A DNA stretch of 64,000 bases from Skermania sp. ID1734 (lineage in GTDB: Bacteria; Actinomycetota; Actinomycetes; Mycobacteriales; Mycobacteriaceae): assembly GCF_007489285.1 (NCBI RefSeq), contig NZ_VLIY01000002.1, positions 124,001 to 188,000 on the forward strand, given 5' to 3'. The notes below the pieces were generated by a model, which saw only the letters and a program-made list of their open reading frames with translations, had not been told where the DNA came from and ran no database searches. This document shows, piece after piece, positions 33,028 through 44,124 of this stretch (within the stretch, counting starts at the first letter, position 1; each line of letters begins with the position of its first letter). Position numbers and translations under genes: made by a program.

Positions 33028-34572
33028 CTACACCATGGGATTGAGACGTGGGAAGGGCTTCATTCTCTTTGACGGGTGACCAGTTTCTCCCGCAGCGCGA
33101 TCACGAACGCGGATCAGTAGCGCGAGAAATGCCGCAATAATGCAAAGGACCGCCACGATCGCGAAGATCTCGTCGTATTCGGTCATCTGGGCAGCGTCCA
33201 CCGACGCGCGGTAGGTCGCGAGCGCGCGCTCGAAGTCCTCGTTGGATTGGTACTGCATCGGTAGGGGCGGGTTGAGACTGCTCGTGAGGCTGTGGAATCG
33301 GTGCAAACCGAACGTGGACAGCGCCGCGATGCCGACCAGCATTCCCGTCATCCGCGCCACCACCACCGCGGCGGCAGCAGTGCCGTACCGAGTGGCCGGC
33401 ACCGTCCGCAATGCGACCGCCGATATCGGCGCGATGATCAACCCGAGACCTGCGCCGGCAATGATCAGGTCGATCACCATGCGCGGAAGGCCCAGCGGGT
33501 AGCTGCTCGAGGCAATCGCGAGTGACCAGCCCGAAACCAGCCAGTACCCGCCCGCGGCGACCAGCATGCCGGCCACCGTGATCGGCCGGTCGCCGAACCG
33601 GGTAGCCAGAACGCCGCCGAGCACCGCGGCAATCGGCAGCGCAGCGAGAAACGGCAACAGCGTCAGCGCCGCGCTGGTGCGGTCGCGCCCGAGTACCGCC
33701 TGGGCGATCAACTCGATATCCACCAGCGTCGCCATCAATGCCGCTCCCGCCAGCAGGCTGACGCCGAGCGCCGCAGCCAACGGTCGCAGCGCCACCCCGG
33801 CGGGGTCGAGTAGTTTCCGACTCGACCACCGTTCCCACGCAACGAGTGCCACCAGGCACACTGCAGCGGCCGACAGCACGGGAATCGCCCACGGCGCGAA
33901 TGCGCTTGCATTCGGGTCTGGATTCTGCAGCCCGGCGACGAGGAGCCCGAGCGTTGCCGCGAGCAGTGCACCGCCGACGAGGTCGATAGTTGTTTTCTCG
34001 CGCGGTTGGCGCGGCACGATCACCTGTACCGCCACGATCGCGACCGCGGTGAGCGGTAGGTTCACCCAGAACACGCCCCGCCAGCCGGTGAGTGCGGCCA
34101 GACCGATTCCGTAGAAGGGCCCGAATACGCTGCCCAGTTCTTGCGCGGCGCCGACGACGCCGAGCACCTCGGCGCGCCGCTGCTGTGACCACAGATCGGC
34201 GACGAGTGCCATTGTTACCGGCAGCAGCGCGCCGCCGGCGATCCCTTGCACGGTGCGACCGGCGACGAGCCAGGTCACCGTCGCACCCACCGCGGTCACC
34301 GCGGACCCGACGGCAAAGAGCACTAAACACAACTGCAACAACGGTTTCCGGCCCAAACGGTCCGAGGCTTGACCGAGCAACGGCATGGCAGCTACGTAAC
34401 CGAGCAGGTAACCGGTCACGATCGGGGTCGCTCGTTCCAGCCGGTTCACCGGGATCCCGATGTCGCGGACGATGTCGCCGAGGAGGCTGACCACTACATA
34501 GGTGTCGAGCGCGCCCAGCAGTACACAGAGCCCGGCGGACGCGACAACCCAGCGCCGTGCGCTGGTGGTCAC
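33028..34572 (-). CDS. MFS efflux/lipid export protein P55
   Basis: This 514-residue 14-helix MFS transporter (DHA2) matches P55 (Rv1410c, 518 residues), which with LprG carries triacylglycerides to the outer membrane and contributes to drug tolerance. Helix 1 has LLGALDTYVVVSLLGDI, motif A is GQASDRLGRKPLL, and motif C-like AAQELGSVFGPFYGIGLAAL lies in helix 5. A long helical hairpin near the C-terminus (after SLNPPLPMQYQSNEDF) also fits P55. Its ATG overlaps the lprG stop as ATGA, preserving the mycobacterial lprG-P55 operon. Confidence 0.92.
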   Translation of the reverse strand: MTTSARRWVVASAGLCVLLGALDTYVVVSLLGDIVRDIGIPVNRLERATPIVTGYLLGYVAAMPLLGQASDRLGRKPLLQLCLVLFAVGSAVTAVGATVTWLVAGRTVQGIAGGALLPVTMALVADLWSQQRRAEVLGVVGAAQELGSVFGPFYGIGLAALTGWRGVFWVNLPLTAVAIVAVQVIVPRQPREKTTIDLVGGALLAATLGLLVAGLQNPDPNASAFAPWAIPVLSAAAVCLVALVAWERWSSRKLLDPAGVALRPLAAALGVSLLAGAALMATLVDIELIAQAVLGRDRTSAALTLLPFLAALPIAAVLGGVLATRFGDRPITVAGMLVAAGGYWLVSGWSLAIASSSYPLGLPRMVIDLIIAGAGLGLIIAPISAVALRTVPATRYGTAAAAVVVARMTGMLVGIAALSTFGLHRFHSLTSSLNPPLPMQYQSNEDFERALATYRASVDAAQMTEYDEIFAIVAVLCIIAAFLALLIRVRDRAAGETGHPSKRMKPFPRLNPMV

Positions 34573-35258
34573 GACGGCGGTGTGACCGTGAAGGGCTTGT
34601 TGAAGTTGCTCAGCGTTGCCTGGACCGTCGGGTTCGCGCTGCTGTTCGGCAGTTGCAGCCAGAGTTGAAGGAGATCGCGCTCACCGTCCGCCCGCAGCCA
34701 GTACGTGACGTCTACGTCGTTGCTCACCCCCGGAACGATCGGCGCGATCACCGCCTTGGTGACCTTGCCGGACACCTTGTACGCGCGGACGTCACCGACG
34801 TTGTCGACGGCGTCCGTCTTCGCCGCTGTGGTGTGGGCGAGCACGTTGGCGATGCCGCGCTGGGGGTCGAGCAATGCCGAGGAATCGTAGATGCTCGCGG
34901 TGCGCTCGGCCGACAGAGTCTGGAAACCACCGGTCGGGCCCTTGAAGTACGCGGTCTTGCCGACAACAACGAACTCACCCTCGATGAGTGCGCCGGAAAG
35001 GTTGAAACGCAGCGTCCCGCGGGCATTTCCGCCCGTCGCGACATCACCGTCGACGCCGCGCAGCGCCATTCCCGGCGGATCGTCGTTGACCGTGAGGGTG
35101 ATGTGCACACTGTGCAGGTTGCGCGCCGCGGCGGCCGCCTCGCGCAAGGTCGTGGCCGCGTCGGGCAGCTTTTCATTCGAGGACGAGGAGCATCCCGTCA
35201 TCGCGAGCAGCGCAGCGACCAGGGCCGTGATGAACAGTGCAACCTTCGAACCCGCCAC
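34569..35258 (-). CDS. lprG: lipoprotein LprG
   Basis: The 229-residue lipoprotein has a signal peptide with lipobox LLAMTGC (lipidated Cys23). The mature LppX/LprG fold binds triacylated lipids such as LAM and triacylglycerol in a large hydrophobic cavity and works with P55. Segments such as DVDGDVATGGNARGTLRF-like (here GVDGDVATGGNARGTL) and APIVPGVSNDVDVTYWL agree with M. tuberculosis LprG (236 residues). The start is GTG 35258. It is divergent from a small sigma-region-4-like frame only 17 bases away. Confidence 0.93.
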   Translation of the reverse strand: MAGSKVALFITALVAALLAMTGCSSSSNEKLPDAATTLREAAAAARNLHSVHITLTVNDDPPGMALRGVDGDVATGGNARGTLRFNLSGALIEGEFVVVGKTAYFKGPTGGFQTLSAERTASIYDSSALLDPQRGIANVLAHTTAAKTDAVDNVGDVRAYKVSGKVTKAVIAPIVPGVSNDVDVTYWLRADGERDLLQLWLQLPNSSANPTVQATLSNFNKPFTVTPPS

Positions 35259-35275
35259 GAGTAAACGATAGAACG

Positions 35276-35680
35276 ATGACAGCGCTCACGGTCCCGCTTC
35301 CACGGCGAGTCCGATGGCTGTCCGCCGACAGTCGCCCCCTTCGCGACGGGGTGGGGATTTGCGCACCCAAGGGTGCCTATCCGCGACCGGATCGCCGATT
35401 CACGCTTGCGGTGTACCTATTCCCGATAGCAGGGGCGGTGGGTCTGGTGAGCAACCGGGGAAGCCTACAGTCATCTCCTCCGGCCGAGGAGATGCCCGAC
35501 GCGCTGTTTCGTATCCCGGAACTCGACAGGCGCGTATTGATCCTTGCCTACTACCGCCGGATGCCGCTGACGGACGTCGCTGCCCTCGTCGGCGGAGACG
35601 TTCCCGCAGTGCTCGACTGCCTCCATCGCGCCGCGCACGCCATCGTCAGCGCCGAGCGACCTCGCGTAGACGCGCCGTAA
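35276..35680 (+). CDS. small protein with sigma region 4-like helix-turn-helix
   Basis: The C-terminal half of this 134-residue frame (FRIPELDRRVLILAYYRRMPLTDVAALVGGDVPAVLDCLHRAAHAI) looks like sigma-70 region 4, ending like the LHRA segment of ECF factors. Region 2 is absent, so it cannot be a complete sigma factor. The N-terminal half is arginine- and proline-rich and may not be coding; internal starts at GTG 35449 or ATG 35492 would give only the domain. It could be a sigma remnant or a DNA-binding accessory protein. It lies just upstream of the sigma-Rieske cluster. Confidence 0.5.
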   Translation: MTALTVPLPRRVRWLSADSRPLRDGVGICAPKGAYPRPDRRFTLAVYLFPIAGAVGLVSNRGSLQSSPPAEEMPDALFRIPELDRRVLILAYYRRMPLTDVAALVGGDVPAVLDCLHRAAHAIVSAERPRVDAP

Positions 35681-35728: not shown

Positions 35729-35902
35729 ATGATGTTCCAGCGTGCCGTGCGGAGTCTAGTGCTGGTACTGGCCGCGGTTGCAGCGATCGCGATTGGCGCG
35801 CAAGCGGCGGCCATCGCGTGTCCGGCGAGCAATCCGGCGCCAAATCCGCCACCGTGCTACGAGGTTTACGACATCTACAACGACGTTTTCCACTGCGAAT
35901 AG
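35729..35902 (+). CDS. 57-residue secreted peptide
   Basis: ATG 35729 (or the adjacent ATG 35732) is preceded by CAGGGAGC, a good ribosome binding site. The frame encodes 57 residues: a signal peptide (RSLVLVLAAVAAIAIGAQAAA) with a cleavage site near AAAIA, then about 28 mature residues rich in proline with three cysteines (ACPAS, PPCYE, FHCE) and several acidic and tyrosine residues. The function is unknown. It precedes the sigma factor gene by about 95 bases and may belong to that cluster. Confidence 0.6.
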   Translation: MMFQRAVRSLVLVLAAVAAIAIGAQAAAIACPASNPAPNPPPCYEVYDIYNDVFHCE

Positions 35903-35996
35903 GCGCGGTGGCAGCGACGGCGTGTAACTTGCCGTGCTATCTCCTTGCGAACGTCGGCCTGCTGGGGCCGGGGTATGACTTCGACGGAGGTGGCGG

Positions 35997-36572
35997 ATGG
36001 GGCTGCGGCCACAGCGACCTCGTCATCCGGCGCCGAGCGGCGTCCCTGATGCCGGGCGGGGACTGCGGGTGATTCGCGCCGACGCCTATCCGGACTGGCA
36101 GGCGATCTACGAAGACAACGCCGTGTGGGTGTATCGGCTGATGTTCGGCAAGGTCGGCAACAAAGCTGACGCGGAGGACCTGACTGCCGAAGTCTTTGTT
36201 GCGGCATTGGGGCCGTTGCGGGTGTCCGCCAGTGTCGCGGAGGTGCGAACGTATCTGCGGGCAACTGCGCGAACCGTGCTCGCGGCGTATTGGCGGCAGC
36301 GAATGGGTCGACCGATCACCACGATCGATGACGACGTGCGCGAGGCCGAATCGGCGGAAGCCGGACCCTCGGACGCACCGGCGCGGGTCGATGCGGTCCT
36401 GGACCGGCTGCCGGATCGGTACCGTCGAATCCTGGAATTACGGTTTCTGCAGGGCCACTCGGTACGGGAAGCCGCCGCGGCGCTCGGTGTGAGCGTCGCC
36501 AACGCGAAGGTCATCCAGCATCGGGCTTTGCAGATGGCCGCGCAGTTGGGCGAGGAGGTGGGTGACCGATGA
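35997..36572 (+). CDS. ECF-like RNA polymerase sigma factor
   Basis: The 191-residue protein has region 2 (IYEDNAVWVYRLMFGKVGNKADAEDLTAEVFVAAL) and region 4 (LDRLPDRYRRILELRFLQGHSVREAAAALGVSVANAKVIQHRAL), the two domains of extracytoplasmic-function sigma factors. It directs polymerase to a small regulon. ATG 35997 has GGAGG six bases upstream; GTG 36069, which begins right at region 2, is the alternative. Its stop overlaps the start of the membrane Rieske gene as ATGA, the usual arrangement for a sigma factor and its anti-sigma factor. Confidence 0.85.
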   Translation: MGLRPQRPRHPAPSGVPDAGRGLRVIRADAYPDWQAIYEDNAVWVYRLMFGKVGNKADAEDLTAEVFVAALGPLRVSASVAEVRTYLRATARTVLAAYWRQRMGRPITTIDDDVREAESAEAGPSDAPARVDAVLDRLPDRYRRILELRFLQGHSVREAAAALGVSVANAKVIQHRALQMAAQLGEEVGDR

Positions 36573-37258
36573 GCGATCGACAGCTCCGGCGGTTCGTTGA
36601 CCAACTGCTTCGCGGACGCCGCCCGACGGCATTTCGGCCCGATGACGCCGAGGCACAGCAGATGCGGATGGCGATCGAACTGCGCGCCGCGCGATCCGGC
36701 GCCGACCTGCCGAGCGAAGAGTTTCTGACCGGCCTGCACCGCCGCCTCGCCGAACTTGCCGACGACGACGCGGGTGCGAAGCCGCCCAAGCTGTCGAGCA
36801 CCCGCAGGCAGGTGATCGGCGGGGTCTCTATCGCGGCAGCCGCGGCAGCGGTGGCGACGGTGGTAGACCGCAGCATCTTCGAGAACTCGCCCGCGCAGAC
36901 GACCGAAACCGCGCAAACACTTTCGCCTGTCGATGGGGAGTGGCGTCCGGTCGCGGCGGTCGCCGACGTTCCGGAGGGCGCCGTGCGCGCCTTCAATTTC
37001 GGCGCCGTCAACGGATTCGTCCATCGCAAGGACGGGCAGCTGGCGGCCGTGTCGGGGGTGTGCACCCACCAAGGCTGCAAGCTGTGGTTCGACGCGTCGG
37101 CTGAAAATTTGCGCTGCCCCTGCCACACAACGTCGTTCGCGGTGACTGGGGAACTGCTCAACCACCAACTGCCCATCGCGCCCCGGCCGCTGCCGCGCAT
37201 CGAGGTACGTCAAAATGCCGGGATGATCGAAGTTTTCGTGCCCGCGAAGCCGGCCTGA
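36569..37258 (+). CDS. Tat-anchored Rieske [2Fe-2S] protein, candidate anti-sigma factor
   Basis: The 229-residue protein has a cytoplasmic N-terminal domain of about 76 residues, a twin-arginine motif with one hydrophobic segment (STRRQVIGG, about residues 77-100), and an exported Rieske domain. Cluster ligands are Cys155, His157, Cys173 and His176; Cys160 and Cys175 can form the disulfide of high-potential Rieske proteins. The usual HGSxF after the last ligand is HTTSF. The long cytoplasmic arm and 4-base overlap with the sigma gene suggest an anti-sigma role with redox input from outside the membrane. That role is inference; an electron-transfer role is equally possible. Confidence 0.85.
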   Translation: MSDRQLRRFVDQLLRGRRPTAFRPDDAEAQQMRMAIELRAARSGADLPSEEFLTGLHRRLAELADDDAGAKPPKLSSTRRQVIGGVSIAAAAAAVATVVDRSIFENSPAQTTETAQTLSPVDGEWRPVAAVADVPEGAVRAFNFGAVNGFVHRKDGQLAAVSGVCTHQGCKLWFDASAENLRCPCHTTSFAVTGELLNHQLPIAPRPLPRIEVRQNAGMIEVFVPAKPA

Positions 37259-37344
37259 TCGCCTCGCGTAACCGGGGCCCTATCTAGCTGGTGAACACTC
37301 GCTCCGGTCCAGGAGCAGTGTCACGATCTTCGAAGGGCTCGCTC

Positions 37345-37821
37345 ATGATCGCTGTCGCACAAGGCTATCCGCGTATTGTCGGCACCGCGGTGGCCGCCGT
37401 TGCTGTTGTCGCTCTGCTCGCCGGCTGCGACGACTCCGCGCCGCAATCGGTTTCGCCAACGGTGGACTTCGGGTCCCGCACCGGCCCGACGCCCGGTATG
37501 CCCGGACACGGAGCGGCCGCGCACAACACGCCCACGATGCCCGCGACGACCGCTTCGGCTGGGACTGCCGCGGGTATGAAGGTGCAGATCGACAACTTCA
37601 TGTTTTCCCCTGCGACACTGACGGTTCCGGTCGGCACCACAGTCACGTGGACCAATCACGACGAGGAACCGCACACGGTGGTGGCCACCGACGGGTCATT
37701 CCGATCCACCGCCCTTGGGTCGGGGGCGACGTTTGCGTTCACCTTCACAACGACCGGCAACTTCGACTACGTCTGCTCGATCCACCCGTTCATGCACGGC
37801 ACCGTGGTGGTTGTGAAATGA
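37345..37821 (+). CDS. amicyanin/plastocyanin-like blue-copper lipoprotein
   Basis: This 158-residue lipoprotein has signal and lipobox VALLAGC (lipidated Cys28), a Pro/Thr/His-rich linker (about residues 31-76) and a cupredoxin domain. Type 1 copper ligands are visible: His110 (EEPH), Cys144, His147 and Met150 in CSIHPFMHG, the amicyanin spacing. It should carry single electrons at the outer face of the membrane. I place the start at ATG 37345; GTG 37291 is possible. Its stop overlaps the phosphoesterase start as ATGA. The neighbouring Rieske protein is a plausible electron partner. Confidence 0.9.
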   Translation: MIAVAQGYPRIVGTAVAAVAVVALLAGCDDSAPQSVSPTVDFGSRTGPTPGMPGHGAAAHNTPTMPATTASAGTAAGMKVQIDNFMFSPATLTVPVGTTVTWTNHDEEPHTVVATDGSFRSTALGSGATFAFTFTTTGNFDYVCSIHPFMHGTVVVVK

Positions 37822-38753
37822 ACGACCCACAGTCGATGACGCGGCGGCAGTTGCTACGCCACGGCGCCTGGTTCGGCGCAGCCGTCGGGCTCGCAGTGGT
37901 CGGCGGCGAAGTCATCTCGCACACAGCGGCATCCCCGACACCCGAGGCTGCGGCATCCGACCGCCCGACGTTGCGGTTCGCGCAAATCAGCGACAGCCAC
38001 ATCGGTTTCCACGGCGCAGCCAATACGAACGTGACCGACACCTTCACCGAAGCGATTCGACAGGTGAACAGCCTCGGCTACACGCCGGATTTCGTCATCC
38101 ACAGCGGCGACCTGACGCACCTGTCCACCCCGGACCAGTTCGACCAAGTCAAACAGATGCTGAGCGACCTCGACACCCCACACGTCTTTGTCGTTCCGGG
38201 AGAACACGATTCCATCGACGACGCGGGCCAGAAGTACCGCGCCGCGTTCGGCGCGGGCACCCGCGGCGACGGCTGGTACAGCTTCGACATCGCGGGCGTA
38301 CACGTTGTGGCGCTGGTCAACACGCTGAACCTGAACCGGCTAGGCCACCTCGGGCGGGACCAGCTCGACTTTTTGCGCACCGACGTCACCGGACTGTCCA
38401 ACGACACGCCGATCATCGTGTTCAGCCACATTCCGTTGTTCGCGATGTATCCAACGTGGGGGTGGGGCACCGACGACGCGGCCGAGGCCCTCAGCTACCT
38501 GCGCCGATTCGCGTCGGTTACCTGCCTCAACGGCCATGTGCACCAGCTGTTCACCAAGACCGAGGGGAACATCACCTTTCACAGCGCCACCACTACCGCC
38601 TACCCACTGCCGCAGCCCGGCGTCGGTACCGGACCGGTGCCGGTAACCTTGCCCGCCGGAAAGTTGCATGCCGCGTTGGGCATTCGTGAGGTCAGCTACC
38701 TGCGCGGCCAGCAACCGCTCGCCGTCAAGGAGCAGATGCTGGCCGAGGCCTAA
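37818..38753 (+). CDS. Tat-exported calcineurin-like metallophosphoesterase
   Basis: The 311-residue protein begins with a twin-arginine signal (MTRRQLLRHG, then GAAVGLAVVGGEVI). The metallophosphoesterase metal-site blocks follow in order: ISDSHIGFH, HSGDLTH, VPGEHD (in place of the usual GNHD), FSHIPLF and NGHVHQ. It should hydrolyse a phosphate ester outside the cytoplasm with a dimetal centre. The substrate is unknown. It is co-translated with the cupredoxin through an ATGA overlap and ends 4 bases into the convergent small gene. Confidence 0.88.
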   Translation: MNDPQSMTRRQLLRHGAWFGAAVGLAVVGGEVISHTAASPTPEAAASDRPTLRFAQISDSHIGFHGAANTNVTDTFTEAIRQVNSLGYTPDFVIHSGDLTHLSTPDQFDQVKQMLSDLDTPHVFVVPGEHDSIDDAGQKYRAAFGAGTRGDGWYSFDIAGVHVVALVNTLNLNRLGHLGRDQLDFLRTDVTGLSNDTPIIVFSHIPLFAMYPTWGWGTDDAAEALSYLRRFASVTCLNGHVHQLFTKTEGNITFHSATTTAYPLPQPGVGTGPVPVTLPAGKLHAALGIREVSYLRGQQPLAVKEQMLAEA

Positions 38754-39133: not shown

Positions 39134-42100
39134 TCAGTGCGTCTGTGCCTCGTGGCGCTGCGTCGTCGCCCGCGCAGTGCCGGTATTCGCCATCTTCACC
39201 AACAGATCGGGCGCGAAAACCGACAGTGCGGTGGCCGTCCCCGTCGCGGCGACTACGCCGGTCCAGGCGACCGGTCCCAGTGGTGTGCATCCGAAAAAGT
39301 GACTGACGACCGGTGTTTGGACAATGGCCGCGAGGGCGAGCGCACTGCCGACGGCCGTGGCCATGACGAGCGGACTGTGCCGCCGGGTGAGCAACGTCTG
39401 CGCCAGCTGGGTGCTTACCAATGCCGTCAATCCCATTGTCTGGGTGCGTCGCTGGGAACCTGGAGTCCAGTTGCCGATGGCCCAGGCGGCGGTTGCGCCG
39501 GCAGCCGTCACCACGCCGCGATTGATGATCTGACGCGTCAATGGCGCGTCGAGCGATGGCGCTGGTTGGGCCAGCAGGGTGTTTCGATGCTCGCGGCGGG
39601 CGGCTTCGAGTTCGTCGCCGGACAATTCGGCCGACTCCTCCGGATCCGGATCGCGCGGAGTCAGCGCGACGGCGAGCGCAGGAAACATGTCGGTGAGCAT
39701 GTTCACCAACAACACTTGACGGGTGCCTACCGGCGCCCGCCCTGAACCGAGCGCGGTGCCGATGAGGGTGAACAGAACTTCACCGGCGTTGCCGCCGACG
39801 AGGATCGCCAGGGCATCGCGGACGCTGCCCCACATGTTGCGACCCTCGACGAGTGCGTCGAGCAAAATGGTCAGATCGTCTCGGGTGAGAACGATGTCCG
39901 CGGCACCGCGGGCGGCCGACGAGCCGCGACCACTGACTCCGATGCCGACATCGGCAAGGCGGATCGCCGCGGCGTCGTTGGCGCCGTCGCCGACCATCGC
40001 GGTCACCCGATGGCAGTGCTGCAGTGCGGCCACGACCTGAACCTTTTGCTCGGGGCTCACCCGGGCGAAAACATTCACGTCGACGGCGAGTTTGGCGCGC
40101 GCGTCCTCGTCGAGCGCACCGAACTCGGCGCCGGTGACCACCCGGACATCCTCGGGCATACCGAGCTGGTGCGCGATCGCGCGCGCGGTGACCGGATGAT
40201 CGCCGGTGATCAGCACGACCTGACGGCCCGCCTGTTCCAGCGCCTCCACCAGCGGTCGCGCCGAGGCTCGGGCCACGTCCGCCAGCCCGACAAAGCCAAC
40301 CAATTCCAACTCGGTTGCGTTCGAGTCGATCACATCGGCATCCGAATCTGCTAATTCGCCCTTCCATTTGCGTTGCGCCACAGCGAGAACCCGCAAACCC
40401 CGCGCGGCCAGAGTTTCGCTCAGTTCGTCGGCGCGGTGGCGGTCGGTGTCCGGGTCGGCGAATCGGCAACGCGGCAGAATCTCCTCGGGCGCACCCTTCA
40501 GCACTAGCATCGGTTCGCGGCTGGAAGGTTCGGAACCGACCGCCGCCGCGTATCCGCGGCTCGACTCGAAGGGAACTTCGGCGCTGGCAGTCCACTGCGC
40601 CACCTGCTCACCGCACAGCTCCTCGGCCGCGTTCACGACCGCCTCGTCGGTGGCGTGGGCATGGCCGTGGCCGTTCTGCGGTTGCGGGCAGGCGTGGGCC
40701 GCCACGCGCAGTACCTTGACGGCGCGCTTGTCTTTGAGGCCGGGGAGCCGGCGGTGCGGATTCGTCCCGCCGGGGACCGCGGCGACGACGTGCAGACGGT
40801 TTTCGGTCAACGTGCCGGTCTTGTCGAAACACACTGTGTGCACCCGGCCGAGCGCCTCGATCGCCCGTGGGGTGCGCACCAGCACGCCGTGCCGGGACAG
40901 TCGCCGGGCGGCGGCGAGTTGGGAAATCGTGGCCACCAGGGGCAGACCTTCCGGAACTGCCGCCACGGCGATGGCCACGCCGTCGGCGACGGCTTGGCGC
41001 AGCGAAGCGCGATGCAGCAGCGCCAACCCCGTGACCGTCGCGCCGCCGGCGAACGTCAGCGGCAGCACCTTGCTCGTCAACTCACGCAGTCGCGCCTGAA
41101 TCCCCGGTGCGGGTCCCACGTCGGCCACCGCCGATATCGCGCGACTGGCGGCAGTGGCGCTGCCGGTCGCCACGACGATTGCGCGCGCCTGCCCGGCTAC
41201 GACGGTGCTGCCCTCGAAAAGCATGCTGGCGCGGTCGGATTCGTCGGCGGAGACGGATTCGACTTGCTTGGCCACGGGCACCGACTCGCCGGTGAGGAAC
41301 GACTCGTCAACCTCGAGATCGTCCGCGGTGAGTATCCGCGCGTCGGCGGGTACGACGTCGGGGGCAGCAAGATCGATGACGTCACCGGGTCGCAGTGAGT
41401 GCGCCGCGACCTTCACTGTCCGCTGGCCGTGCCGCGCCGTCTCGAGACGGCGCCGGGTCGTGGCAACGACGGGTACGACCACGCGCCGGGCGAGCAGTTC
41501 CTGTTCCGCGAACAGAGCGGCGGCAGCACGTTCGGCCCGAAGCCGTTGAATACCACCGACAATCGCATTGACCGTCATGACGCCGGCCACCAGGACAGCG
41601 TCGACGTTACTGCCGAGAATCGCCGACGCCGCCGCGCCGACAGCCAACACCGGGGTCAACGGGTCGCTCAGTTCGGTCCTCGTTGCGGCCCCCAATCGTG
41701 CCGCCGCCTTTGCCGTTCCGCGCAGCGGCGCCAGCACGGGCGTGTCGGTGATCTCGGCGATTCGGCGCCGCCACGGCGACAGGCTCGGCGCAGTGACGAG
41801 CGCGGCCCCGTTACCGGCGAGTCGTGAATACACGATCTCGGGATCCAGCGCATGCCATGCGGTCAGCGGTTGTGGCGTCGGTTCGGGCATCCGCAGCACT
41901 CCGCGGGCGGCGAGGGTGCCCGCCACGAGCGCTGTGCCGGCGGCCGCGTGCACCGGACTCACCCAGCGCCGCAAACTGATTCGGCTGGCGGTGCCGGACT
42001 CCCCGGTCACCAGCAGCAGGCCGGCCAGCGTGCTGCCCGCCTTTGCGAACCGCACTGCGGATTCGGTGGCTCGGCGGGCGGCCGGTAACGCTGCAAGCAG

Positions 42101-43918
42101 CCGTACCGCCGCGGCCAGATCGGGCCCGGTGATGATGTCGGCGGTCCAGGGCGTCGCCGCCTTCGGATCATCCAGTGCCACAGCGACATCGGCGATGGCT
42201 AGCGCCGCCAGCGTGTCGGTCGACGCGAAGTCGGGATGCAGACCGGTTATGAGCATGACCGGCCCGCGGTCGGCCCGAAGCTCGCGCACCAGTTCCAGCA
42301 GTGGCGTTCCCGCCGGGCGTACTTCGGCGACGCTGCCAGCCAAATCGTCGGTGCCGGCGACATGGCGCAGCACCACCCGGACGTCCGCGTGGTGTGCCGT
42401 CTGGAGCAGGGGAGCGGCGAATGGATCTACCTCCCACCCGACCTCGACACTGCCGACGCGCTCGCCGTCGACCATCAGATCGGCGTGCTCACGGCCTTCT
42501 GCGGGCGTCGCCGACGCATGCTGGCGAATCCAGCGCAGTCGGGCCCGTGCCGCGGGCGGCTCATCGGGATCCGGCTCGGGCGCCCGCTCGCCGTGGAGCA
42601 GAGCGTCGGCCACCTCGTAGACCCGGTCGTCATCCCAACCCGGAGCCAGGGGGTGTGCCCGCAGCACGGCACGCGCGTCACCGCGTAGCGCCGCGCCGTC
42701 GACCACCACAACCCGCACCCGATCCAATCTGCGTAGCGCGCCGGGATCGAGAACGAGTTGTCCGGCGTCGGCCAATCCCCGTCCGAGCACCGCGGCGAAC
42801 GCCTCCCGGCCCAGATGCGCGGCTTTCGGAACGCCCGCCAAAACGGCGTCGGCAACCTGTTCCGATCCGCCACCGGCGAGCAGTGCGCCCGCGGCTGCGA
42901 GCAACGACCCATTGGCGGCCTGGTCCGCGTAGTCCTCGATGGCGCCACCTGCCGCGCCCTTGGCGGAATCGACGGCGACGTCGATGGCGCCATCCACCAC
43001 CACATGCGAGACCTCGCCGGCCGCGGTGACCGCCCAGCCGTGGCGCGGTTGCTCAGCGCCGGCCGACGAGATCACCGGAACCACGGCCGCTTGCGGGCGA
43101 TCGGAGGACGCGAGGTCTGGTTCTCGCTGTCGCCAGGTGCGCCGCTGGGCAGCCGCCTCGGCGATCTGCAACCCACGCTGGGCCAGATCGAGGGCGGGAC
43201 CGCCCACGGACTGGCTCAACCCGTGCGTCACCGCCATCGATGCGCTCAGCAGGATGTCCGTGCCCACCCGTCCCAGGTGTGATTCGAGCAATGACACCAC
43301 CCGCGGTTGGTGGTTGAGCACCGCTGCAGCCGCTCGTGCGGTGCGCGGCACGGCCGGCAGTCGGCCCACCCAGCCGGTAACTGCCGCACCGATGGCCACC
43401 ACGTCCATTGCGGCAGCAGTGACCGGCAGTAGCAGGGCTAGTGGGTCGCCAGGGTCGGCGAAAGGTGCTGTTCGAGAAGGTGGTTCGCCGCCAGGCTCCG
43501 ACTTCAGCGGCTCGAGCACCGCACAGACCGCCCCCCAGATCCGCTCGGCGTCGGCCTGCTCCCGGTGCTCGACCACCAACCGTCCGAGCGCACGTTCGAC
43601 GTGCGCGGACGTGACTCCGGGCAGCTTGCGCACCGCCTCTTCGACCGCTTCCGCGTATTCGGACCAATGCGCGAACGGCAGCAACGGTTCCAGATCCAGG
43701 TGCACACGCCGACCGGTGTGCCACGCGACCGACGGCGGAACCCGCGGCGGCTCATGGTCATTGCCGACGACCGCGAGCAGTCGGCCGGTGGTTCGCTCGA
43801 CCGAGGTCACCATCGGATTGGTCAAGGCCTGTACCGCGCTCGCCGTGCCGATCGCGCCGACCGCCCCCGCGCGCAGCACGCGGAGCCCCGCGCCGCCCAC
43901 ACTGCCAACAACCGTCAT
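39134..43918 (-). CDS. ctpI: giant cation-translocating P-type ATPase (CtpI)
   Basis: The product (about 1594 residues) matches the size and layout of mycobacterial CtpI (1632). The last 900 residues are a full P-type ATPase: TGESVPVAKQ (actuator, about 876), VAAVPEGLPLVATI (ion-binding helix 4, PEGLP as in P2-type pumps), phosphorylation site FDKTGTLT (Asp near 1030) and GDGANDAAAIRLADVGIG (about 1311). The first 650 residues hold two HMA-like or degenerate domains. Transported ion is unknown. I start at ATG 43918 because GAGGTGG lies 6-8 bases upstream; ATG-type starts reach back to 44050. It is divergent from the RodA-like gene. Confidence 0.9.
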   Translation of the reverse strand: MTVVGSVGGAGLRVLRAGAVGAIGTASAVQALTNPMVTSVERTTGRLLAVVGNDHEPPRVPPSVAWHTGRRVHLDLEPLLPFAHWSEYAEAVEEAVRKLPGVTSAHVERALGRLVVEHREQADAERIWGAVCAVLEPLKSEPGGEPPSRTAPFADPGDPLALLLPVTAAAMDVVAIGAAVTGWVGRLPAVPRTARAAAAVLNHQPRVVSLLESHLGRVGTDILLSASMAVTHGLSQSVGGPALDLAQRGLQIAEAAAQRRTWRQREPDLASSDRPQAAVVPVISSAGAEQPRHGWAVTAAGEVSHVVVDGAIDVAVDSAKGAAGGAIEDYADQAANGSLLAAAGALLAGGGSEQVADAVLAGVPKAAHLGREAFAAVLGRGLADAGQLVLDPGALRRLDRVRVVVVDGAALRGDARAVLRAHPLAPGWDDDRVYEVADALLHGERAPEPDPDEPPAARARLRWIRQHASATPAEGREHADLMVDGERVGSVEVGWEVDPFAAPLLQTAHHADVRVVLRHVAGTDDLAGSVAEVRPAGTPLLELVRELRADRGPVMLITGLHPDFASTDTLAALAIADVAVALDDPKAATPWTADIITGPDLAAAVRLLAALPAARRATESAVRFAKAGSTLAGLLLVTGESGTASRISLRRWVSPVHAAAGTALVAGTLAARGVLRMPEPTPQPLTAWHALDPEIVYSRLAGNGAALVTAPSLSPWRRRIAEITDTPVLAPLRGTAKAAARLGAATRTELSDPLTPVLAVGAAASAILGSNVDAVLVAGVMTVNAIVGGIQRLRAERAAAALFAEQELLARRVVVPVVATTRRRLETARHGQRTVKVAAHSLRPGDVIDLAAPDVVPADARILTADDLEVDESFLTGESVPVAKQVESVSADESDRASMLFEGSTVVAGQARAIVVATGSATAASRAISAVADVGPAPGIQARLRELTSKVLPLTFAGGATVTGLALLHRASLRQAVADGVAIAVAAVPEGLPLVATISQLAAARRLSRHGVLVRTPRAIEALGRVHTVCFDKTGTLTENRLHVVAAVPGGTNPHRRLPGLKDKRAVKVLRVAAHACPQPQNGHGHAHATDEAVVNAAEELCGEQVAQWTASAEVPFESSRGYAAAVGSEPSSREPMLVLKGAPEEILPRCRFADPDTDRHRADELSETLAARGLRVLAVAQRKWKGELADSDADVIDSNATELELVGFVGLADVARASARPLVEALEQAGRQVVLITGDHPVTARAIAHQLGMPEDVRVVTGAEFGALDEDARAKLAVDVNVFARVSPEQKVQVVAALQHCHRVTAMVGDGANDAAAIRLADVGIGVSGRGSSAARGAADIVLTRDDLTILLDALVEGRNMWGSVRDALAILVGGNAGEVLFTLIGTALGSGRAPVGTRQVLLVNMLTDMFPALAVALTPRDPDPEESAELSGDELEAARREHRNTLLAQPAPSLDAPLTRQIINRGVVTAAGATAAWAIGNWTPGSQRRTQTMGLTALVSTQLAQTLLTRRHSPLVMATAVGSALALAAIVQTPVVSHFFGCTPLGPVAWTGVVAATGTATALSVFAPDLLVKMANTGTARATTQRHEAQTH

Positions 43919-44124
43919 GGGTGCCACCTCTATCCCAGTTGAACCGAAGCAACGGGTACCCGTTTCGCCGCGGATCGCACCACCGCGGCCCAGGACATGG
44001 CCGTATTGTCCGATGTCGGGCGAAACGTCGTTATTTTCCTGTCCCGACACGAGATTGACGTTTCGTGCGCAACGCCGTTGCTGGTCGTAAGCCAGTACGC
44101 TTTGGCCGTGAGGAAGGCTTCACG

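Follow-up and report, generated by a model that had tools for sequence, protein, structure and literature searches.

A putative sigma/anti-sigma pair with a Rieske-type outer sensor in a Mycobacteriaceae genome

Transmembrane anti-sigma proteins with outer sensors are already known, as are anti-sigma proteins of the [2Fe-2S] type: RsmA and RshA are reported to bind such a cluster in the accessible text of PMC3427169. In the Streptomyces pair BldN-RsbN (class III, PDB 6dxo) helices 1-2 of the anti-sigma RsbN hold region 4 of the sigma factor BldN and helix 3 holds region 2, according to the accessible text of PMC7406223, where the names are swapped, and of PMC8103513. Here we describe a four-gene cluster from Skermania sp. 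ID1734 (contig NZ_VLIY01000002.1, positions 124,001 to 188,000; these 64,000 nucleotides are called the window, and coordinates refer to it unless another locus is named). The genes encode an extracytoplasmic function (ECF) sigma factor, a Rieske protein, an amicyanin-like cupredoxin lipoprotein and a calcineurin-like phosphoesterase, all on the forward strand and at the positions reported in the initial annotation. We suggest, with a probability of about 0.72, that the first two genes form a sigma/anti-sigma pair with an envelope Rieske sensor, and that the sigma drives both this operon and the one of the cupredoxin and phosphoesterase.

The sigma gene (36069-36572, forward strand) encodes 167 residues from a GTG codon. 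Both Pfam regions score above cut-off (Sigma70_r2 34.0 bits against 24, Sigma70_r4_2 46.2 against 25.7), and the short protein with regions 2 and 4 is thus assigned to the ECF sigma factors. The frame is open from ATG 35997; this longest version was rejected because homologues align from the in-frame GTG 36069, which is therefore the likelier start. The closest solved sequence is BldN (6dxo_A, E 3.8e-11), and the best NCBIfam model is TIGR02952 of the BldN family, with 70.2 bits against a cut-off of 206.45, which leaves the protein outside that family. The Rieske gene (36569-37258, forward strand) overlaps the sigma gene by the ATGA at 36569-36572, just as had been proposed earlier. Its product begins with an N-terminal arm, residues 1-78 (36569-36802, forward), a predicted cytoplasmic anti-sigma domain in which AlphaFold2 places helices at residues 3-14, 26-40 and 50-66. 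The arm is followed by the twin arginines (residues 79-80) and an alanine-rich membrane anchor, together residues 79-100 (36803-36868, forward), and then by the Rieske [2Fe-2S] domain, residues 119-229 and the stop codon (36923-37258, forward).

The gene pair was followed across genomes. Counts below refer to 73 loci, namely the window, 20 loci from family genomes and 52 from a scan of named genomes (the same species may occur twice; two copies of the window, L007 and L009, are excluded), or to 89 loci and proteins when 16 from other families are added (L235 and L238, from one incomplete locus of genome G930, are excluded). The genome searches scored only the best first-look candidates of each genome, so weak members may be missed. 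The host genome is of the Mycobacteriaceae type (5.12 Mb), and the relatives in the named-genome scan belong to Mycobacterium, Mycolicibacterium and Mycobacteroides. Rieske protein matches occur in 32 of 301 family genomes, 21 with the arm and 11 without it, and the sigma gene is present in 21 of the 301, which are the same 21 that carry the arm. Nine of the 11 arm-less Rieske loci were checked, and within about 1.5 kb none of them carries the arm or a sigma gene related to this one. In 70/73 loci the sigma gene overlaps the Rieske gene by exactly 4 bp, more than chance would give, with the exceptions at -1, +8 and +457. Hence the Rieske gene is linked to its sigma gene across species, in the manner expected of an anti-sigma gene. 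The cupredoxin and phosphoesterase genes lie downstream in the same direction in 46 of the 73 loci and divergently upstream in 26, and the Rieske and cupredoxin genes are close together in 72/73. One locus (L016/L148, genome G238) has the sigma and Rieske genes, but its 9-kb region yielded neither a cupredoxin nor a phosphoesterase gene; the pair can thus occur without them.

The arm leads to the same sigma partner when it is searched for by itself. A profile of the arm only, containing no Rieske residues, matches 8/396 genomes of the phylum, 20/296 of the class and 13/35 of another family (f91). Outside the home family it finds 17 genomes with a Rieske-type locus (13 from the class search, G484 and three added by the f91 search), plus the distant genome G408. 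The sigma factor is present in 17/17 of these genomes and the Rieske domain is visible in 16/17; in the seventeenth, G930, the contig ends before the Rieske domain. In the 16 fully examined loci the sigma and Rieske genes share one strand in 16/16, a cupredoxin gene is seen in 11/16 and a phosphoesterase gene in 9/16; in the five without a cupredoxin gene nearby the sigma and Rieske genes are still together. G484 belongs to another class and is the only one of 24 genomes of that class with the arm. In G408 the arm (E 3.4e-6) opens a 566-residue protein with an outer FecR domain (29.9 bits, cut-off 24), whose gene directly follows another ECF sigma gene. The initial annotation had named an arm missing from orthologues that keep the sigma gene as the result that would contradict its proposal; across the genomes no such result appeared, neither in the 21/301 family genomes nor in the 17/17 of other families.

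The protein itself is built of two conserved domains flanking a conserved anchor. Per column, the mean pairwise identity amounts to 0.59 for arm residues 1-66, 0.66 for the twin-arginine anchor and 0.66 for the Rieske domain, and the two linkers between them are far less conserved (0.25 and 0.24). Arm residues F52 and L56 are invariant in 89/89 proteins and P48 is kept in 87/89. The twin arginines are also invariant in 89/89, and the model NCBIfam TAT_signal_seq matches from residue 78 with 17.3 bits against a cut-off of 16.7, so export by the twin-arginine translocation (Tat) system is predicted. The claim of a 76-residue arm before a single Tat-type anchor thus holds, with an arm of about 76-78 residues. 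AlphaFold2 predicts three separate helices in the arm, with a predicted local distance difference test score (pLDDT) of about 60-79, and a confident Rieske domain. No Pfam family is above cut-off in the arm, and in a PDB sequence search with the arm profile the best hit was an unrelated protein (E 0.047).

At the other end of the protein, Pfam Rieske (PF00355) matches residues 124-198 with 51.5 bits against a cut-off of 20.3; the only other row in the Pfam scan is DUF7739 with 12.6 of 27 bits. The best fold match of the domain is 8hn2_A (Z 14.5 over 106 residues), among solved Rieske proteins. The ligands C165, H167, C183 and H186 and the cysteine pair C170/C185 are invariant in 89/89 proteins, which argues that the sensor domain is kept intact and is no relic. 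Separately, genome G064 contains a Rieske fragment (L030, 56-58% identity) with an in-frame TGA and with no arm or sigma nearby, apparently a remnant of a system that was lost.

Alignment of the divergent intergenic regions gave two outward-facing copies of one motif. Its consensus is GTGTAACC, 5-7 nt, and CCTATCT, often followed by G-R-T-G-A. In the window the copy before the sigma gene (35923-35950, forward strand) consists of TGTAAC at 35923-35928, CTATCT at 35937-35942 and a -10-like TGCGA at 35946-35950. The copy before the cupredoxin gene (37266-37294, forward strand) consists of GCGTAACC at 37266-37273, CTATCT at 37280-37285 and GGTGA at 37290-37294. With up to 3 mismatches the motif stands upstream of the cupredoxin gene in 72/72 loci (ten shuffled motifs, 0-2/72) and upstream of the sigma gene in 51/73 (ten shuffled motifs, 0-1/73). 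For the other families, scanned over a slightly longer region and with no shuffled control, the counts are 11/11 and 13/16, which brings the totals to 83/83 for the cupredoxin gene and 64/89 for the sigma gene. The motif stands before both units in either layout, tandem (46) or divergent (26). In 12 whole genomes with the cluster a strict form of the motif has 21 matches, spread over 10 genomes; 17 of these fall at the cluster, and in the host genome the single strict match is the site before the sigma gene.

The spacing of the motif resembles that of BldN promoters. In the BldN consensus CGTAACN16CGTTGA, as it appears in the accessible text of PMC2375139, TGA follows GTAAC by 19 nt; among 73 distinct sites here the distance from GTAAC to TGA is 19 nt in 26 and 18 nt in 9. 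The CTATCT block was considered as the -10 element, but its distance of 7-8 nt from GTAAC is too short for a usual ECF promoter; in 35/73 sites a TGA at 18-19 nt agrees with the spacing of BldN. Within the promoter spacer the CTATCT block (35937-35942 and 37280-37285) equals the -35 box in conservation, and its position can vary by one base. This conservation could reflect a second binding factor or a contact of the sigma factor.

The two genes behind the second motif copy are the predicted targets. The cupredoxin gene (37345-37821, forward strand) encodes a lipoprotein with the lipobox LLAGC, matched by Pfam Cupredoxin_1 (47.4 bits, cut-off 27) and Copper-bind (44.5, cut-off 21.2). Its likelier start is ATG 37345, since GTG 37291 falls within the predicted promoter. 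The copper ligand pattern H..C..H..M is present in 71/72 homologues in a relaxed form and in 59/72 in a stricter one, as in type I cupredoxins. The amicyanin model TIGR02657 gives 52.8 bits against a cut-off of 110.2; amicyanin as the exact family name was thus rejected, and amicyanin-like is right. The metallophosphoesterase gene (37818-38753, forward strand; PF00149 47.4 bits, cut-off 21.5) encodes a calcineurin-like protein with a Tat-type pair of arginines near the N-terminus, which was found in 71/71 homologues checked. The two genes overlap by the ATGA at 37818-37821, so an amicyanin-like protein and a phosphoesterase with overlapping genes do follow the pair, as first described.

Hence, we consider the two genes a well-supported sigma/anti-sigma candidate in terms of sequence comparison. 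The transmembrane anti-sigma reading follows from the gene overlap, the conserved arm that is never apart from a sigma gene in our samples, the anchor, the exchangeable outer domain and the motif-marked targets. The layout of an anti-sigma factor with an outer redox domain, which the initial annotation had recognized, gains good support from the co-occurrence in 21/301 family genomes, the 17/17 genomes of other families, the conservation of the arm relative to the linkers and the arm-FecR protein beside an ECF sigma gene. Most likely the arm would inhibit the sigma factor, and the sigma would drive the operon that encodes it along with the cupredoxin and phosphoesterase genes.

We infer that the arm binds the sigma factor, that the topology is N-in, that export is by Tat, that a cluster is present and that the sigma acts at these promoters; the signal is the most inferential part of all. 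We suggest the following sequence of events. At the first step the N-terminal three-helix arm would stay in the cytoplasm and hold the ECF sigma factor, with the twin-arginine segment anchoring the Rieske protein in the membrane. The C-terminal Rieske [2Fe-2S] domain would fold inside, be exported by Tat and act as the envelope sensor. At the second step a change in the state of the Rieske domain (reduction or oxidation of the cluster, its loss, or contact with a redox partner) would make the arm release the sigma factor. The free sigma would then act at GTAAC-type promoters to transcribe both its own operon and that of the cupredoxin and phosphoesterase; feedback from the cupredoxin to the Rieske domain may follow. 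As for the signal, the system could be under the control of extracytoplasmic electron flow or copper, an earlier idea for which the evidence is the invariant Rieske residues and the predicted cupredoxin target. A tentative version of it, to which we give somewhat less than even odds, is an electron-flow-gated sigma: the redox state of the exported Rieske domain, set by envelope carriers, would pass via one membrane helix to the arm, and the induced cupredoxin would exchange electrons with the cluster.

Several results weigh against the sigma/anti-sigma assignment. When modeled alone, the arm reaches a pLDDT of 70.5, and it has no fold match (best Z 2.8, with the RsbN chains not among the matches listed). 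Alignment of the arm to five RsbN-type sequences by hhalign gives a probability of 0.5%, and the link to RsbN is thus not established with these sequences. With the N-termini of 28 DUF5667 proteins the link is suggestive only: the probability is 20.9% and the score of 21.3 is reached by 0/100 column permutations (maximum 16.5), the reversed control giving 16.1. In this set the start positions follow a rough rule and the neighbouring sigma gene is unverified for each member; L169 and L193 are left out. Covariation between the sigma factor and the arm is not enriched, 0.41% of pairs having z>3 against 1.05% for pairs of sigma and Rieske domain, in a test with an effective number of sequences (Neff) of about 29 and little power; one arm with an in-frame stop (L146) is left out of alignment A4. 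On the promoter side, the sigma gene lacks the motif in 22/73 loci, mostly those like M. colombiense, so autoregulation of the sigma gene is not universal. A TGA at 18-19 nt is missing from 38/73 sites (raw counts, no background computed). The reversed strict motif gives 17 matches overall against 21, and the strict motif is thus not commoner genome-wide than this control; its value as evidence is therefore its place at the cluster.

The same data were weighed against other functions of the Rieske protein. Tat exports folded, cofactor-loaded proteins, and the twin arginines and all cluster ligands are invariant in 89/89. These points agree with an anti-sigma whose checkpoint lies inside the cell: only a cluster-loaded domain would pass Tat quality control, and a shortage of iron or clusters would hold up export, alter the arm and release the sigma factor, so that the supply of clusters is sensed and not the envelope electron flow. 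We hold this unlikely, as the predicted targets are envelope proteins, the cupredoxin and the exported phosphoesterase, and not iron-uptake genes. It is improbable that the Rieske protein is simply the electron-transfer partner of the cupredoxin, co-transcribed with a sigma factor which is regulated otherwise, with the arm serving export or assembly. Both domains are electron carriers, their genes are close in 72/73 loci and the covariation test gave nothing for sigma and arm. However, nine arm-less Rieske loci have neither the arm nor this sigma, the arm goes with an ECF sigma gene even when FecR replaces the Rieske domain, and the sigma and Rieske genes stay together with no cupredoxin gene nearby in L016/L148 and in 5/16 loci of other families.

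The arm before a FecR domain also allows a different sign of control. FecR of E. coli both holds and activates its sigma, according to the accessible text of PMC8315932, and the Rieske protein might likewise be a co-activator, the sigma requiring the arm for activity; deletion of the Rieske gene would then switch the targets off. We judge this quite improbable, and we prefer inhibition of the sigma factor by the arm.

If the electron-flow-gated version holds, the sensor, the switch and the electron carrier would make up a single feedback loop, conserved from Mycobacteriaceae to another actinobacterial class. The proposed pair is a specific candidate for a one-protein route from redox or copper conditions beyond the membrane to transcription, and it yields predictions for the anti-sigma region, for the sequence of the promoter and for a few target genes close by. 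The swap of Rieske and FecR behind the same arm would show that the sensors of anti-sigma proteins changed by domain exchange.

Further copies of the motif were seen at other loci. Those at L068 4715, L070 4712, L075 4726, L088 4723 and L063 3064 precede open reading frames (ORFs) of 73-111 residues, apparently exported, which share stretches like LSQC.VTGVHG...VYVDV.C; two were tested and have no Pfam family above cut-off. The copies at L151 2541 (reverse strand), L154 2037 (forward) and L015 833 (reverse) precede ORFs of about 160-180 residues with a signal-like start and a common CLWA...GG; the L154 site (G270) is far from the cluster, and its protein has no Pfam match. Because such sites stand before genes of small exported proteins, whether close to the cluster or away from it, we predict a small, envelope-directed set of targets. 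In G077 and G265 a 69-72-residue ORF (MNA.IE.SRLA.RRPG) with its own motif copy and no Pfam match (L149 4370, reverse; L150 3039, forward) separates the Rieske gene from the cupredoxin gene.

The arrangement of the pair varies at some loci. In L023 (1016-2849) and L024 (1001-2851), with L151 as the wider region, two sigma genes flank the Rieske gene; the one overlapping it has 48% identity and the one between the Rieske and cupredoxin genes 64-66%, possibly a duplicated pair with divided roles. In G484 (L145 3768-5821, reverse strand) a single sigma gene precedes two Rieske genes, both with the arm, and a motif copy then stands before a membrane-protein ORF.

In the window the cluster is preceded by a 147-residue ORF (35237-35680, forward strand), perhaps a remnant, in which sigma region 4 scores 13.9 bits, below the cut-off of 24.1. 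A possible 57-residue ORF with a signal-like start (35729-35902, forward) lies just 5' of the sigma promoter. Upstream on the reverse strand (33028-35258) the gene of an LppX_LprAFG lipoprotein overlaps that of a major facilitator superfamily transporter, like the pair LprG-P55 of mycobacteria. Downstream, a 1638-residue P-type ATPase gene (39134-44050, reverse strand) faces the cluster; it has E1-E2_ATPase at 130.8 bits and a weak HMA match (19.1, cut-off 24.8), and resembles mycobacterial CtpI.

In the accessible parts of the literature on Rieske proteins with ECF or anti-sigma factors we found no description of a Rieske outer sensor on an anti-sigma; the papers on ECF reclassification and on the RsbN-BldN structure lay outside this coverage. 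In RsmA and RshA, as far as the accessible text goes, the cluster sits on cysteines of the anti-sigma protein itself, and RsmA belongs to the HATPase_c family, unlike the Cys2His2 Rieske domain placed here beyond a membrane segment. With the membrane-anchored Rieske proteins (bc1/b6f, cyanobacterial PetC3 type) the protein shares the Rieske fold, the CTHxGC and CPCH boxes and one N-terminal anchor; it differs from them by the arm of some 78 residues that precedes the anchor, the constant ECF sigma partner gene and the absence of a cytochrome b gene from the four-gene cluster. FecR is exported by Tat, and FecR-type transmembrane regulators have the predicted N-in arm, the twin-arginine membrane segment and the outer sensor in common with this protein, the same arm being joined to FecR in G408. 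However, no FecR domain, TonB receptor or siderophore gene is seen in the four-gene cluster, and the outer domain is an iron-sulfur electron-carrier fold. The outer domain also separates the protein from RsbN, being Rieske and not DUF5667 (PF18915 has 0 matches in the host genome), and the sequence link between arm and RsbN is not significant; likewise, the sigma factor stays far below the BldN family cut-off. Nevertheless BldN is its nearest solved relative and gives its best NCBIfam model, the -35 GTAAC and the TGA spacing match the BldN consensus as far as it is available, and the predicted helices of the arm parallel the three helices which form the anti-sigma region of RsbN before its membrane segment. 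By this analogy, the closest model for the Rieske protein is RsbN, an anti-sigma of class III.

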